A stretch of 13,122 nt of DNA from Alphaproteobacteria bacterium. Its GTDB lineage: Bacteria; Pseudomonadota; Alphaproteobacteria; Micropepsales; Micropepsaceae. A program made the translations under genes and the position numbers. Of this stretch, positions 5,097 to 10,776 are shown in pieces. The notes beneath the pieces were generated by a model. The model saw only the letters and a program-made list of their open reading frames with translations, did not search any database and was not told the DNA's origin. The stretch spans positions 1 to 13,122 of the forward strand of contig JAFKFF010000097.1 in assembly GCA_017307315.1 (NCBI GenBank), read 5' to 3'. How positions within the stretch are numbered: the first letter of the stretch is position 1; each line of letters starts with the position of its first letter.

Positions 5097-5126
5097 CTGA
5101 CAGCGCCGCCGCTTTCCCGCTAACCT
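5097..5126 (+). promoter_or_regulatory. Candidate housekeeping promoter for pepN
   Basis: CTGACA (5097-5102, five of six matches to TTGACA) and TAACCT (5121-5126, within GCTAACCT, close to the alphaproteobacterial GCTANA -10) are 18 bp apart. A start near 5133 would give a short leader carrying GAGG (5141-5144), five bases before ATG 5150. Based on motif matching only. Confidence 0.4.
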
Positions 5127-5149
5127 CGGGGCTTCCGACAGAGGTCCCC

Positions 5150-7753
5150 ATGCGCACCGAAGAACCCCGCGCCATCCATCTTGCCGATTACACGGCGCCC
5201 GGTTTCCGTATCGAGACCGTCCATCTCGATTTCGCCCTCGATCCCGAAGCCACCCGGGTCAAGGCGAAACTCGCCATCCGGCGCAAGACCGCGGGCGTAC
5301 CCCTGGTGCTTCATGGCGAAGAGTTGAAGCTCGTTTCCATCTCGATCGACGGCCGCGCGCTCGGCGAAGCCGACTATGCGCTGGACGAAAAATCCCTCGC
5401 CATCGCCCGGGTTCCGGACCATTTCGTGCTGGAAACCGAATGCGAGATCGCGCCCGCCGCCAATACCGCGCTGGAGGGCCTTTACCAGTCGGGCGGCATC
5501 TTCTGCACCCAATGCGAACCGGAAGGCTTCCGCCGCATCACCTGGTTCCTGGACCGGCCCGACAATCTTTCCATCTTCACCGTGCGGATGGAAGCCGCCA
5601 AGGAGCAATATCCGGTGCTCCTGTCCAACGGCAACCGGATCGCAGCCGATGACCTTCCCGGCGGGCGGCATTTCGCGGTCTGGCACGACCCCTTTCCCAA
5701 GCCCTCCTACCTCTTCGCCCTGGTGGCGGGCGACCTGGGTTCGATCCATGACGGTTTCACCACCATGTCCGGGCGCGAGGTCGCGCTCGCCATCTATGTC
5801 GAGCATGGCAACGAGCCGCGCGCGAGCTATGCCATGGGCGCGCTCAAACGGGCGATGAAATGGGACGAAGAGGCGTACGGCCGCGAATACGATCTCGACA
5901 TCTTCATGATCGTGGCGGTCTCGGCCTTCAACATGGGAGCGATGGAAAATAAGGGCCTCAACATCTTCAACGACAAGGTGCTGCTGGCCTCGCCCGAAAC
6001 CGCGACCGACGACGATTATGCCCGCATCGAAAGCGTCGTCGCCCATGAGTATTTCCACAATTGGACGGGCGACCGCATCACCTGCCGCGACTGGTTCCAG
6101 CTTTCCTTGAAGGAAGGCCTCACGGTGTTCCGCGACCAGAGCTTTTCCGGCGACATGCGCAGCCATGGCGTGCAGCGCATCCAGGACGTCCGCGCGCTGC
6201 GCGGCCGCCAGTTCCAGGAAGATGCAGGGCCGCTTGCCCATCCGGTGCAGCCGCAGAGCTATATCGAGATCAACAATTTCTACACGGCCACGGTTTACGA
6301 AAAGGGCTCCGAAGTCATCGGCATGCTGAAGACCTTGGTGGGGCCGGACGGCTACCGCAAGGCGACCGATCTTTATTTCGCGCGCCATGACGGGGAAGCG
6401 GCGACCGTCGAGGACTGGGTGAAATGCTTCGAGGACACCAGCGGCCGCGATCTTTCGCAGTTCCGCCTCTGGTACCGTCAGGCAGGCACCCCGCGCATCA
6501 CGGCGCAAAGCAGTTACGACGCCAAAGCGCGCGCTTATACGCTGACGCTTTCCCAAACCCTTCCCGCCACGCCCGGTCAACCGGCCAAGGCGCCGATGCA
6601 TGTGCCGGTTCGGATCGGCCTTGTCGGCCGCAGCGGTGCGGCACTTGCCCTGACCCTGGACGGCGAGAACGAATCCGGCCCCGACAGCCGTGTGCTGGAA
6701 TTGACCGAGGCGCGGCAGAGCTTCCTCTTCGTCGATGTCGCGGAAGAACCGCTTCTGTCGCTGGGGCGCGGCTTCTCCGCGCCGGCGCATTTCGAAGTGC
6801 GCCAGAGCCGCAAGGATCGCGCCGTGCTGATGGGCCGGGATGGCGATGATTTCAATCGCTGGGAAGCGGGTCAGGCCCTGGCGGCGGAGATCATGCTGCA
6901 GGGCGATGGCGCCGATGGCGACTATGTCGCGGCACTGGGACCGGTGCTGAACCAGGCTGGCAACGATCCCGCCTTCGCCGCCCAGATGCTGGCACCGCCG
7001 ACGGAGAGCGAGTTGGCGGCGATGCGCGCCCCGGCCGATCCCGATGCCATACACGCCGCGCGCGCGGCGCTGATCCGCTCGGTAGCGCATGCCCACGGCG
7101 CGCGGCTGGCGGAGATCTACGAGCATATGCGCGATGCGGGTGATTACAGTCCCGACGCGCGACCGGCCGGCCGGCGGGCCTTGCGCAATGCCTGCCTGCG
7201 CTATCTCACCGCCGCCGACGACGAAGCCGCGGCGGGCCTGGCCGATGCGCACTATCGGACCGCCACCAACATGACCGACATGATCGCCGGTCTGGCGGCG
7301 CTTACCCGCATGGAGAGCCCGCTGCGCGACAAGGCCTTCACCCATTTCCACGACCGCTTCCGCGCCGATCCGCTGGTCCTGGACAAATGGATGAGCCTGC
7401 AGGCGCTGGCGCCTCTGCCGGACACCGTGGCGTCTGTACGCGCGTTGATGAAGCATCCCGCCTTCGACATGAAAAACCCCAACAGGGTCCGCGCCCTGAT
7501 CGGCGCTTTCAGCGCCAATCACCTGCGCTTCCACGACAAGTCCGGCGCCGGATACCGTCTCCTGGGCGAAACGATCCGCATGCTCGACCCCATGAACCCA
7601 CAAGTCGCAGCGCGGCTGGCGGGCGCCTTCGAGAGCTGGCGGCGGTACGATGCCAGCCGCCAGGGCCTGATGCGGGCGGAATTGGAAACGACCCTGGCGC
7701 AGAAGGGCCTGTCGCCCAACCTGTTTGAAGTCGCTTCCAAAATTCTTGGCTAA
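5150..7753 (+). CDS. pepN: Aminopeptidase N (M1 family zinc metallopeptidase)
   Basis: Removes N-terminal amino acids from peptides during cytoplasmic protein turnover. It has 867 residues, essentially the length of E. coli PepN (about 870). Visible motifs: substrate N-terminus-recognition GAMEN at 263-267, zinc site HEYFH at 299-303 with the third ligand Glu322 in LSLKEGLT (19 residues after the second His, as in PepN), and transition-state Tyr383 in TATVYEKG. The N-terminal beta domain (about 1-190), catalytic domain (about 190-445), small beta domain (about 446-545) and all-helical C-terminal domain (to 867, with LNPMNPQVAARL-like features near 810-820) are all represented. There is no signal peptide. 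ATG 5150 has GAGG five bases upstream. It stands alone on the plus strand, 99 bp after the hypothetical gene. Its TAA stop forms part of a 13-bp palindrome next to a CtrA box. Confidence 0.97.
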   Translation: MRTEEPRAIHLADYTAPGFRIETVHLDFALDPEATRVKAKLAIRRKTAGVPLVLHGEELKLVSISIDGRALGEADYALDEKSLAIARVPDHFVLETECEIAPAANTALEGLYQSGGIFCTQCEPEGFRRITWFLDRPDNLSIFTVRMEAAKEQYPVLLSNGNRIAADDLPGGRHFAVWHDPFPKPSYLFALVAGDLGSIHDGFTTMSGREVALAIYVEHGNEPRASYAMGALKRAMKWDEEAYGREYDLDIFMIVAVSAFNMGAMENKGLNIFNDKVLLASPETATDDDYARIESVVAHEYFHNWTGDRITCRDWFQLSLKEGLTVFRDQSFSGDMRSHGVQRIQDVRALRGRQFQEDAGPLAHPVQPQSYIEINNFYTATVYEKGSEVIGMLKTLVGPDGYRKATDLYFARHDGEAATVEDWVKCFEDTSGRDLSQFRLWYRQAGTPRITAQSSYDAKARAYTLTLSQTLPATPGQPAKAPMHVPVRIGLVGRSGAALALTLDGENESGPDSRVLELTEARQSFLFVDVAEEPLLSLGRGFSAPAHFEVRQSRKDRAVLMGRDGDDFNRWEAGQALAAEIMLQGDGADGDYVAALGPVLNQAGNDPAFAAQMLAPPTESELAAMRAPADPDAIHAARAALIRSVAHAHGARLAEIYEHMRDAGDYSPDARPAGRRALRNACLRYLTAADDEAAAGLADAHYRTATNMTDMIAGLAALTRMESPLRDKAFTHFHDRFRADPLVLDKWMSLQALAPLPDTVASVRALMKHPAFDMKNPNRVRALIGAFSANHLRFHDKSGAGYRLLGETIRMLDPMNPQVAARLAGAFESWRRYDASRQGLMRAELETTLAQKGLSPNLFEVASKILG

Positions 7754-7763
7754 CGTCACGTTA
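7751..7763. repeat. 13-bp palindrome TAACGTCACGTTA
   Basis: TAACGT-C-ACGTTA has perfect 6-bp arms around one central base. It begins with the pepN stop codon and shares its last three bases with the following CtrA box. It has the size of a dimeric transcription-factor operator; no binder can be named. Confidence 0.45.
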
Positions 7764-7776
7764 ACCACTCATTAAC
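7761..7776 (+). promoter_or_regulatory. CtrA box (TTAACC-N5-TTAAC)
   Basis: TTAACCACTCATTAAC is an exact TTAA-N7-TTAAC site, and both halves extend to TTAACC as a direct repeat. It starts eight bases after the pepN stop and ends 71 bp before the kinase ATG. No convincing -10 is visible downstream, so activation versus repression cannot be read from spacing. Confidence 0.8.
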
Positions 7777-7788
7777 CCCGGTGGACAG

Positions 7789-7831
7789 CGAGTCGTCGAT
7801 TCGCGTACTCCTGGACGAATCGCTGATTCGC
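7789..7831 (+). repeat. Two 16-bp operator-like repeats containing four GANTC sites
   Basis: Unit 1 (7789-7804, CGAGTCGTCGATTCGC) and unit 2 (7816-7831, CGAATCGCTGATTCGC) match at 13 of 16 positions and repeat every 27 bp. Each is a near or perfect inverted repeat CGARTC-N3-GATTCG. Each contains two GANTC sequences, the target of the cell-cycle methyltransferase CcrM (7790-7794, 7798-7802, 7817-7821, 7825-7829). The block lies between the CtrA box and the kinase start codon. It could be a methylation-sensitive tandem operator. Confidence 0.7.
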
Positions 7832-7837
7832 TTTTTT
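7816..7837 (+). terminator. Weak hairpin followed by T6 in the kinase leader
   Basis: CGAATC-GCT-GATTCG forms a 6-bp stem (three GC pairs) followed by C and TTTTTT (7832-7837). It resembles a weak intrinsic terminator 63 bp after the pepN stop. Its left arm can alternatively pair with CGATTCG at 7797-7803, an attenuator-like choice. The stem is short, and the same bases form the operator-like repeat, so the terminator reading is only tentative. Confidence 0.3.
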
Positions 7838-7847
7838 CGGGGGCAGC

Positions 7848-9386
7848 ATGGCGCATCAGGGCGCCTTGAAGGGACCATGGGAGCTTGCAGGACGGGCCCT
7901 GCCCCGTCGCGTCCTGCGCAATGTCCGGCTGATGGTGCCGATTTCGATCGCCCTGATCTGCGGCTGCTTTGCGGCCACGGCGGTTCTTTCCATGCGGCTG
8001 GACCGTACCCACGCCCTGAACCAGGCAACCCATTACGAACAGCGCCGCGCGGGAGACCTGGCGGCGGTGGCGGGCGCGTCCCTGGACAGGCTGGTGGCGG
8101 CAGGCCTCGGCTTCGCGCGCAATCCCGGTGCCGCCATCGCCGAGCCCGGCATCCGCAACATCGCGGTGTTTCAGGGCAATGAAGCCCGCGCGGTGCTGAA
8201 ACCGCAAAGTGCGCTGCCGCCTGCGCCGGCGTTCACGGGATCGCGGACCCTGTTCCGCTTCGGGCCGCATGCGGGATTGGCGCTGCGCGACGATGCCGGG
8301 ATCGTCACGGTGCTGTTCGATCCGGCGCTGCTGGCGCCACCGTCCCTGATGCAGGATGCCATGCTGGTCGTCGATGGCGTGCCGCTGGCGGGCAACGCGC
8401 TTTCCGCCGATGGCATGCGCCAGGAACAGCCCGTGCCGGGCTGGCCGCTGGCCGCGGTCACGGCATTGGACAGCGACGGCGCGCTGGCCAGCTGGCGCGG
8501 CCTTCTTCCTTTCTATCTCTTCGTCATCCTGGGTCCGGCCATCGTCGGCGGCTGGCTGGCGGCGCTTTTCGTCGGCGCCTTCGAGCGGCACCAAAAGGCG
8601 GCGCATGCGATCCGGGCGCTCAAGACCACGCGCCCGGTCGAGGCCAGGCTGATGGTGCGGCTGGCCAACGCCGAACGCGCCGCTTTCGAGGCCGCGCGCT
8701 CCAAATCTGAATTCATCGCCCATATGAGCCACGAGTTGCGCACGCCGCTCAATGCGGTGATCGGATTTTCGGACATCATCGCCCAGGGCCTGTTCGGCCC
8801 TCCCGGCCATCCCAAATATGCGGAATACGCCAGGGACATCGGAGAGGCGGGACGCAGCCTTCACACCCGCATCGGCGATGTCCTGGAATTCGCCAACATC
8901 GAAGCTGGGCGCCATCCGCTCAATCCCATGGCGACCGATCTGGCGGCGCTGGCCAATGCCTGCGTCGAGGAACACAAGGGCCGCGCCTTCTCCCGTCGCA
9001 TTCAGCTCGATCTGGGAAAGGTCGCGGCGGCGCCAGTCCATGCCGACCCCGTCGCCGTGCGGCGCATTCTCTCGAATCTGATTTCCAACGCCCTCGCCTA
9101 TACCGCCGAAGGCGGCTCGGTCCTGGTCGATGTGCATATCGAAGAGGGCGCGGGTGTGGCGCTGGTGCGCGACAGCGGCCCCGGCTTTTCCCGCGCCGAG
9201 CGGGGCCGGGCGGGGCGTCCGTTCCAGCGTTTCGACCGGCCCGGGCATGTCACCGGCGCGGGGCTGGGCCTTGCCATCGCGATGGAGCTTGCCCGCCGCA
9301 TGGGCGGCGCGATGCGCCTTTCGTCCCTGCCGGGCCATGGCAGCGCGATGGAATTGCGCCTGCCGAAAGCCGAAGCCGCGGCCTGA
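7848..9386 (+). CDS. Membrane sensor histidine kinase, PleC/DivJ (PdhS)-like
   Basis: A 512-residue two-component sensor kinase of the inner membrane. Layout: TM1 about 28-48, a periplasmic sensing region of about 170 residues (49-218) ending in a PDC-like segment (GWPLAAVTALDSDGALASWR), TM2 about 219-245, then about 45 residues of linker straight into the kinase core with no PAS domain. H-box SKSEFIAHMSHELRTPLNAV (phosphoacceptor His295), then GFSDIIAQGLFGPPGHPKYA and EYARDIGEAGRSL, the DHp type shared by PleC, DivJ and PdhS kinases that signal to DivK/PleD. The ATP domain is intact: N-box ILSNLISNA (Asn414), G1 DSGPG (442-446), F-box RPFQRF, G2 GAGLGLAIA (470-478). No receiver domain is fused and no response regulator is adjacent. 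ATG 7848 follows GGGGG (7839-7843). The upstream gap carries a CtrA box and four GANTC sites. Kinase identity is certain; DivK as partner is inference. Confidence 0.93.
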   Translation: MAHQGALKGPWELAGRALPRRVLRNVRLMVPISIALICGCFAATAVLSMRLDRTHALNQATHYEQRRAGDLAAVAGASLDRLVAAGLGFARNPGAAIAEPGIRNIAVFQGNEARAVLKPQSALPPAPAFTGSRTLFRFGPHAGLALRDDAGIVTVLFDPALLAPPSLMQDAMLVVDGVPLAGNALSADGMRQEQPVPGWPLAAVTALDSDGALASWRGLLPFYLFVILGPAIVGGWLAALFVGAFERHQKAAHAIRALKTTRPVEARLMVRLANAERAAFEAARSKSEFIAHMSHELRTPLNAVIGFSDIIAQGLFGPPGHPKYAEYARDIGEAGRSLHTRIGDVLEFANIEAGRHPLNPMATDLAALANACVEEHKGRAFSRRIQLDLGKVAAAPVHADPVAVRRILSNLISNALAYTAEGGSVLVDVHIEEGAGVALVRDSGPGFSRAERGRAGRPFQRFDRPGHVTGAGLGLAIAMELARRMGGAMRLSSLPGHGSAMELRLPKAEAAA

Positions 9387-9388
9387 TT

Positions 9389-9874
9389 TCAGGAAGGGGC
9401 GGTCCGCCGCATCAGCCGCCGCCACCAGGGACCGGCGCGCCGTGCCTTGATGCGTTCGGCGACAGCCCTTCGCTCCGCCGGGGTCAGCGCGTCGATCATG
9501 TCGTGCTGCAACGATACGGTTTCTTCTTCCAGCGCCGCGTCGGCGGCGCGCACATCGTCCAGCGCGCGGCCAAAATCGGCCGAGGAATAATTGGGCGCAT
9601 CGAGAACCCGCAGGGCTTCCTGGCGGGCGCTGCGCGCCGCGCGGCGCCGGTCGCGCAAGGCATCGCGATGTTCGGCCGCCAGGTCGCGGATCTTCTCCCG
9701 CTGCGCCTGCGGCAGCCCGCGCGCGATCTGTGCCGGCGCCATCACGCCGGGGGCGGCAAAGAGACGGCCGCCCCGTCCCATGCCGACCGCGATCATGGCG
9801 ATCAATCCCACATTCAGGCAAAGCGACAGCACCAGAAGCACGGCGCGCGCCCGCGACGGCGTTGCATCGGCCAT
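9389..9874 (-). CDS. Periplasmic sensor protein of the heavy-metal-sensor (CnrX/ZraP/CpxP-like) type
   Basis: 161 residues. A single N-terminal membrane anchor (about 11-31, VLLVLSLCLNVGLIAMIAVG) is followed by a long charged helical periplasmic domain. That domain contains LPQAQREKIRDLAAEHRDAL (54-73) and ends with LTPAERRAVAERI (130-142), recalling the LTxxQ repeats of Spy/CpxP and Metal_resist proteins. Possible metal ligands are His69, His124 and Met126 (QHDM); the spacing is not that of CnrX, so metal and even metal sensing are unproven. Its ATG directly abuts the anti-sigma stop, with a perfect AGGAGG (9883-9888) eight bases upstream inside the anti-sigma gene. It is the last gene of a sigma/anti-sigma/sensor operon. 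It probably binds the anti-sigma in the periplasm and releases the sigma factor on stress. Confidence 0.75.
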   Translation of the reverse strand: MADATPSRARAVLLVLSLCLNVGLIAMIAVGMGRGGRLFAAPGVMAPAQIARGLPQAQREKIRDLAAEHRDALRDRRRAARSARQEALRVLDAPNYSSADFGRALDDVRAADAALEEETVSLQHDMIDALTPAERRAVAERIKARRAGPWWRRLMRRTAPS

Positions 9875-10228
9875 TTAGGAATCCTCCTGCTGGTCGGACG
9901 ACAGGCTGAAGGCGGCAGGTTGTTCCAAGGAGAAAGCGGGCGCGGCGTCCTCCGCCGCGGCAGGCAACACCGTTCCCAGGCCGGCTCCGACCAACAGTGC
10001 CGCCGCCAGCGCGGCGCCGGGTGCCCAGCGCGGCGCGCCCGGCCAGACAAGATCCGCGAAACGGGCAAAACCTGCTTTCCAGGCCGCGCCCGCGCCATGC
10101 GGCCGCGCCTCCCGCCAGGCGTCATACGCCGCCAGCAGAGCCGCCTCGAATCCCGGCGGCGGCGCTTCTTGCGGCAGACGCTTGACCATCCGATCCGTGA
10201 AGTCGCGATCCGAAATCTCACCGCTCAT
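9875..10228 (-). CDS. Putative membrane anti-sigma factor
   Basis: 117 residues: a cytoplasmic N-terminal part (1-68) with an amphipathic start (ISDRDFTDRMVKRLPQEAPP), one membrane segment (about 69-91, APGAALAAALLVGAGLGTVL) and a short periplasmic tail. This is the topology of small anti-sigma factors such as CnrY. No HxxxCxxC zinc motif of ZAS-type anti-sigmas is present. Identity comes mainly from context: the ATG overlaps the sigma stop by ATGA (10225-10228), with GGGAGAG upstream, and the sensor gene follows without a gap. Inferred role: it sequesters the adjacent ECF sigma at the membrane until the periplasmic partner signals. Confidence 0.7.
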   Translation of the reverse strand: MSGEISDRDFTDRMVKRLPQEAPPPGFEAALLAAYDAWREARPHGAGAAWKAGFARFADLVWPGAPRWAPGAALAAALLVGAGLGTVLPAAAEDAAPAFSLEQPAAFSLSSDQQEDS

Positions 10229-10776
10229 GTCCGCTCTCCCGTAAAATCGTTCAAATGCGCCAGGCGGGTCCGCAAGGTTCGGCGGCCGCGCGCCAGGAGC
10301 GATTCCAAAGCTTCAACGGAGATGCCCATCATCTCCGCCGCTTCGACATTGCCGTACTCCTGGAAATGACAGAGCAGGATCGCGGCCCGCTGCCGTTCCG
10401 GCAGGCCCTCCAGGGCGCGCGCGATTTCCTGCGCCTGTGCGTTCGCCTCCAGCCTAGTGTCCGCCGGGACCGTATCGTCCGCGACGTCGGACGCAGCTTC
10501 CAACGGCTGGGTCGGGCGGCGGCGCAGCCGGTCGTAACACTGGTTCAGCATCACGCGGTAAAGCCAGGTTTCGAACTTGGCGCGCCCCGGCTGCCAATGC
10601 GCGGCGTGAGTCCAGAGGCGCAGAAAGACTTCCTGCACCGCATCCTCGGCCTCGCCGCCCAGCATCCGGCGCGCCACCGAAAGCAGTTTGGGCGCATGAC
10701 GGGCGATCAGCCGGGCGGTCGCGGCGCGGTCGCCTCGCCCGGCCCCGGCAACATCTTCGGCATCGGGATCATGCAT
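10225..10776 (-). CDS. ECF-type RNA polymerase sigma factor
   Basis: 183 residues, normal for an ECF sigma. Region 2 spans about 17-88 with EDAVQEVFLRLW (core binding and -10 recognition) and KFETWLYRVMLNQCYDRLRR. Region 4 spans about 115-172 with LEGLPERQRAAILLCHFQEY and the helix-turn-helix NVEAAEMMGISVEALESLLA. There is no C-terminal extension. It directs RNA polymerase to a small regulon, probably including its own operon. It is the first gene of the unit and overlaps the anti-sigma gene by 4 bp. ATG 10776 lacks a Shine-Dalgarno. Just upstream lie an 8-bp inverted repeat and a CGTT motif that could be an ECF -10, so the message may have a very short leader. Inducing signal unknown. Confidence 0.93.
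   Translation of the reverse strand: MHDPDAEDVAGAGRGDRAATARLIARHAPKLLSVARRMLGGEAEDAVQEVFLRLWTHAAHWQPGRAKFETWLYRVMLNQCYDRLRRRPTQPLEAASDVADDTVPADTRLEANAQAQEIARALEGLPERQRAAILLCHFQEYGNVEAAEMMGISVEALESLLARGRRTLRTRLAHLNDFTGERT

Follow-up and report, generated by a model that had tools for sequence, protein, structure and literature searches.

The segment at positions 7761-7848 of the window, that is, of the whole 13,122-nucleotide stretch of DNA analysed here, is probably (we put it at about 0.78) a sigma70-type promoter of the histidine kinase gene adjacent to pepN, controlled by CcrM and GcrA, the kinase being PleC-like by position. The cluster of four GANTC sites in this segment most likely belongs to a conserved kinase promoter read by the cell-cycle methylation system, rather than being the target of an unknown regulator.

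The cluster lies in the intergenic interval (7754-7847) between two forward-strand genes: pepN (5150-7753), encoding aminopeptidase N (NCBIfam TIGR02414 above cut-off; Pfam M1 and DUF3458 domains), and a downstream gene (7848-9386) encoding a 512-aa histidine kinase with HisKA and HATPase_c domains (Pfam). As the first-pass annotation had claimed, four GANTC sites fall within 40 bp on the forward strand, at 7790-7794, 7798-7802, 7817-7821 and 7825-7829 (GANTC1 to GANTC4), forming two GANTC-N3-GANTC units; reading of the sequence also bore out that these units, CGAGTCGTCGATTCGC (7789-7804) and CGAATCGCTGATTCGC (7816-7831), are identical at 13 of 16 positions and start 27 bp apart. The two units can also pair together into a single long hairpin. 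The upstream box described in that annotation is present as well: a perfect TTAA-N7-TTAA at 7761-7775, forward strand, which we take to be a CtrA box, ends 14 bases ahead of GANTC1 and overlaps none of the GANTC sites. The remaining elements, all on the forward strand, are a predicted -35 (TGGACA, 7782-7787), assigned by its position and by the GACA kept in many relatives; a predicted -10 (CGTACT, 7804-7809), located by an anchored comparison of relatives and poor as a -10, with a weak match to TATAAT; a run of six T (7832-7837), terminator-like in combination with the upstream hairpin; and GGGGG (7839-7843), a possible ribosome binding site. In this arrangement GANTC1 and GANTC2 would occupy the promoter spacer, the latter one base ahead of the -10, GANTC3 would be at the predicted transcription start, and GANTC4 (TGATTCG) would follow it. 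On the far side of the kinase gene, and converging on it from the minus strand, positions 9389-10776 hold an ECF-type sigma factor gene, a 117-aa frame with no Pfam match and a Metal_resist-family gene.

The sequence GANTC is scarce in the window as a whole, with 19 occurrences, whereas 200 shuffles had 54.84 on average; where about one site per 300 bp had been expected earlier, the shuffles give one per 239 bp and the window holds one per 691 bp. Such rarity is reported for alphaproteobacterial orders except Rickettsiales, together with an intergenic excess (PMC3973325). Among 1000 dinucleotide shuffles of the window, at least four GANTC in 40 bp were found in 7, at least one GANTC-N3-GANTC in 186, and two such pairs no more than 60 bp apart in none; when the 19 sites were placed at random, 28 of 100,000 trials had four of them within 40 bp. 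The four-site clustering exceeds chance expectation. Over the entire own assembly, GANTC-N3-GANTC occurs at five places (three for the backward-pattern control), two of them in the cluster and the remaining three inside putative open frames of 148 to 465 aa.

A search with the N-terminal part of the kinase gave matches in 56 of 69 genus genomes, and the upstream regions of 55 were tabulated; G026 was left out because its contig ends inside the kinase gene, and L055 and G086, which by length are the same contig, were counted once. The region upstream of the kinase in these 55 genomes looks like a sigma70-type promoter, with a shared layout that often comprises a GACA-type -35, GANTC at -14 or -15 and at -6 from the -10, and then downstream GANTC; this geometry is partly circular, since the -10 was placed by hand in 14 genomes and by a consensus derived from the same set in the others. 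The spacer ahead of the -10 holds two GANTC sites in 38 genomes, one in 11 and none in 6, the paired sites being separated by N3 in 28 genomes and by N4 in 10, and GANTC stands at the offset of GANTC1 in 44 of the 55 and at that of GANTC2 in 43. A GANTC site 13-22 bases past the start of the -10, the place of GANTC3, is found in all genomes except G091 (54/55). The -10 sequences were CATAAT (29 genomes), CATACT (11), TATCAT (8), CGTACT (4) and three others, one each, and the -35 was unrecognisable at the expected place in G004, G036, G064, G072, G077, G080 and G088, among others. A sigma70 scan of positions 5100-9900 of the window found no promoter. The density of GANTC was 2.73 per 70-bp promoter segment, with seven genomes mis-anchored, while the upstream sequence, with 150 in 67,718 bases, averaged 0.155 per 70 bp. 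An exact TTAA-N7-TTAA box no more than 90 bp upstream of the -10 was present in seven of the 55 genomes, among them all five that carry the four-site form.

The orientation of the sites also follows a pattern. All four sites of the window match YGAKTCK on one strand, as read from the sequence, and in the relatives this fit on one strand was found for 24 of 44 GANTC1 sites, 33 of 43 GANTC2 sites and 61 of 61 downstream sites. Since 32 of 43 GANTC2 sites match YGAKTCK on the plus strand, and TGATTCG is on the minus strand in 44 of the 61 downstream sites and on the plus strand in 10, GANTC2 and GANTC3 are in most cases oriented towards each other, with the -10 between them. Assuming the usual spacing, GANTC1 would be located near -26, GANTC2 near -18 and GANTC3 just past the start. 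The extended motif YGAKTCK is described as a hypothesis for Caulobacter that was not borne out in Brevundimonas (PMC7987155).

The machinery required for this type of control appears to be widespread in the genus: of the 37 same-genus genomes searched, the own one included, 34 have the GcrA domain (PF07750), as G014 does, and 33 the RAMA domain of CcrM (PF18755). The own assembly, 86.65% complete, gave no match to GcrA and none to RAMA. It does contain a CcrM-like fragment of 185 residues, corresponding to the first part of the protein, which is 94.6% identical to the G014 protein and runs to the contig end.

The kinase gene of the window directly follows pepN, as pleC does in Caulobacter, where the consecutive locus tags of pepN (CCNA_02566; PMC11481889) and pleC (CCNA_02567; PMC7200025) place pleC directly after pepN. 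Orthology to PleC by best match failed: when the genomes were queried with the pepN-adjacent kinase of Phenylobacterium, whose identity as PleC is itself a presumption, in none of six was the top match the kinase next to pepN, and in the own genome the window kinase showed 39% identity and another kinase 58%. This closer kinase is located at G000:C21:228-956. Against NCBIfam, the window kinase matched TorS best, followed at lower scores by DivJ and PdhS, all far below the cut-offs. Pfam detected no PAS domains ahead of HisKA in the window kinase, L002 or L055; PAS domains are present in the kinases near pepN of L103, L120, L070 and L108. Because of the failed best matches and the absence of PAS domains, the term PleC-like refers to position only.

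The association of pepN with a kinase extends beyond the genus. Matches to pepN were obtained in 84 of 192 genomes of the class, of which 30 loci were fetched and 20 analysed. A Pfam-confirmed histidine kinase came next in six of the 20, with 1, 3, 3, 4, 4 and 4 GANTC sites in the 150 bp after pepN; in the other 14 loci, where the Pfam check covered one neighbour, an EAL protein, the same interval held no GANTC in ten, one in two and two in two. Pfam-confirmed kinases adjoin pepN in L070, L072, L077, L103, L108 and L114, and one follows 1.8 kb after it in L120; GANTC sites, often several, lie upstream of these kinases in varied layouts. In L103, a Phenylobacterium MAG, four GANTC sites with an exact 15-bp period are found at about 6460-6510, between pepN and a PAS-HisKA kinase.

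The spacer pattern GANTC-N3-GANTC-N-YRTNNT occurs at 48 places in 37 of 60 genomes (backward control, 4): 23 at the kinase, 9 at a second element and 14 at single places (G006:C5, which is L169, among them), with two more that resemble the kinase site and were not placed (G001:C171 and G018:C256). Allowing one mismatch, TGATTCGCATAATC was found at 34 places (control, 0), of which 17 are at the kinase; among 14 of the 17 places elsewhere, none has more than two GANTC sites in 100 bases; an N3 pair is present in both L153 and L155, and L143 has two sites. The second recurring GANTC-N3-GANTC element, with GACTCccgGACTCttgttttc or near variants (cttgtcat in L170), was fetched for seven of its nine places and lies at about 900-1100 in each of L166, L167, L168, L170, L171, L172 and L173. 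It has more GANTC sites within 60 bases upstream and precedes a frame that is presumably YbjN-like, a name given by reading and not by family search.

The comparison of relatives lent no support to the reading of the cluster as a pair of dyad operators for a dimeric regulator not yet described. The two similar palindromes with equal internal spacing agree with a regulator that recognises a 16-bp palindrome, but two N3 pairs are found in only five of the 55 genomes (G000, G014, G086, G087 and G090), a sixth, G083, having the second N3 pair with a single spacer site, and across the 38 genomes with a spacer pair the spacing is N3 in 28 and N4 in 10. None of the 20 GANTC sites is lost in the five genomes of the four-site form, the first linker varies (GTC, GCT, GCC, ACC, ATC), and GANTC3 is either GAATC or GATTC; the GATTC of G086, G087 and G090 breaks the second palindrome and retains the GANTC. 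As far as these sequences go, what is conserved is not the double palindrome, and we regard an operator of this kind as very improbable. It had also been proposed to look for loss of the repeats in relatives: they are not absent in relatives with the kinase gene, but the element that persists is GANTC at promoter positions. This conservation in 55 genomes contradicts a functionless chance cluster too, and even though four GANTC sites in 40 bp do arise in the occasional shuffle, we consider that reading negligible.

The same replacement of GANTC3 in G086, G087 and G090 bears on a further explanation, namely that the cluster is the intrinsic terminator of pepN, a hairpin of both units followed by six T, with the GANTC letters as a by-product of the stem: GATTC spoils the pairing and keeps the GANTC. 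The own genome does present the feature, a hairpin and then a T run, with a terminator-like match at 7816-7830 followed by TTTTTT and a 59-nt segment that folds at -22.9 kcal/mol (z -2.65). However, a run of at least five T after the -10 is present in one of the 55 genomes, the own one, in 12 of the 55 the equivalent segment has a lower folding energy and lacks a T run, and the four terminator-like matches in the region compare with 3.4 from shuffles. A terminator as the explanation of the cluster is improbable, and terminator and promoter functions could coexist in the own genome. It is also quite unlikely that the cluster is a hypomethylated switch in which a protein such as MucR or CtrA shields the GANTC sites from CcrM. 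The TTAA-N7-TTAA box ends close enough to GANTC1, 14 bases ahead of it, to invite this reading; in Caulobacter, CtrA can occlude GANTC sites that overlap its boxes, and P169, with four GANTC sites, is an occluded target of MucR (PMC5172544). Nevertheless, the box of the window does not overlap the sites and is exact in only seven genomes, there is no known MucR consensus to test against, and PpleC, the counterpart by position, depends on GANTC for its activation (PMC3667746).

The promoter reading is best compared with this counterpart. The activity of a Caulobacter PpleC-lacZ fusion and of three other reporters is reported to drop by about 60% upon GcrA depletion, and mutation of GANTC cuts it by 60-80% (PMC3667746). 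The likeness of the kinase promoter to PpleC and PmipZ consists in the location of pleC after pepN, the presence of GANTC in the promoter and the presence of CcrM and GcrA in the group, and mipZ moreover has two juxtaposed GANTC sites (PMC3667746); it differs in having spacer sites 8 or 9 bp apart plus one or two start-proximal ones, kept over many species. The likeness to PpleC is drawn from descriptions rather than from the promoter sequence, and the regulation of the kinase promoter is what we infer from it. The Caulobacter ftsZ promoter also has a conserved GANTC between -35 and -10, required for the effect of CcrM, but as a single CGACTC motif instead of a pair with start-proximal sites (PMC3708114). 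The MucR-occluded P169 shares with the window four GANTC sites in one promoter; multi-GANTC promoters of this type are hypomethylated, a state that is only conjectural for the kinase promoter (PMC5172544). In Caulobacter, a class of transcription starts that carry GANTC in the interval from -10 to -35 becomes active at 40-60 min, 11 of 96 starts were recorded with two or more GANTC upstream, and only 31% of GcrA-enriched cell-cycle starts have GANTC within 50 bp upstream (PMC4287350). This low share weighs against the promoter reading, as do the partial fit of GANTC1 to YGAKTCK, the negative sigma70 scan, the weak -10 of the window, the -10 positions placed by hand, the missing match to GcrA in the incomplete own assembly, and the failed best matches and lack of PAS domains of the kinase. 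A limited literature search on multi-GANTC promoters met no description of the layout of the kinase promoter, and one may exist.

The earlier suggestion of a methylation-sensitive switch may hold in a broad sense, given that GANTC is kept in and after promoter-like sequence and that pleC, the positional counterpart, depends on GcrA and GANTC. From these comparisons we infer the promoter elements, their methylation, the binding of GcrA, the timing and the role of CtrA. CcrM would methylate the GANTC sites. GcrA, a sigma70 cofactor (reviewed in PMC7403470) with a preference for GANTC in its methylated state, would occupy the -35/-10 spacer, perhaps along with the start-proximal site or sites, and may help RNA polymerase to open a promoter whose -10 is poor. 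As the replication fork passes, the sites would become hemimethylated, which would set the cell-cycle timing of expression, with the upstream CtrA box as a possible second cell-cycle input. A more speculative and rather doubtful version is that the promoter reads methylation at several sites, the methylated spacer GANTC and the oppositely oriented TGATTCG at the start holding the -10 from both sides with two GcrA per RNA polymerase, and the four-site form giving a steeper response to hemimethylation. If this were so, the passing fork would give a cell-fate kinase a sharp on/off signal.

The 55 genomes offer natural versions of the promoter with zero, one or two spacer sites, one or two start-proximal sites and N3 or N4 spacing, which allow a direct study of how the number, spacing and orientation of GANTC sites set the response to GcrA. 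The comparison also points to the promoter of the pepN-adjacent kinase as a long-kept CcrM/GcrA target, despite the reported rewiring of the CcrM/GcrA regulon between close relatives (PMC7987155).
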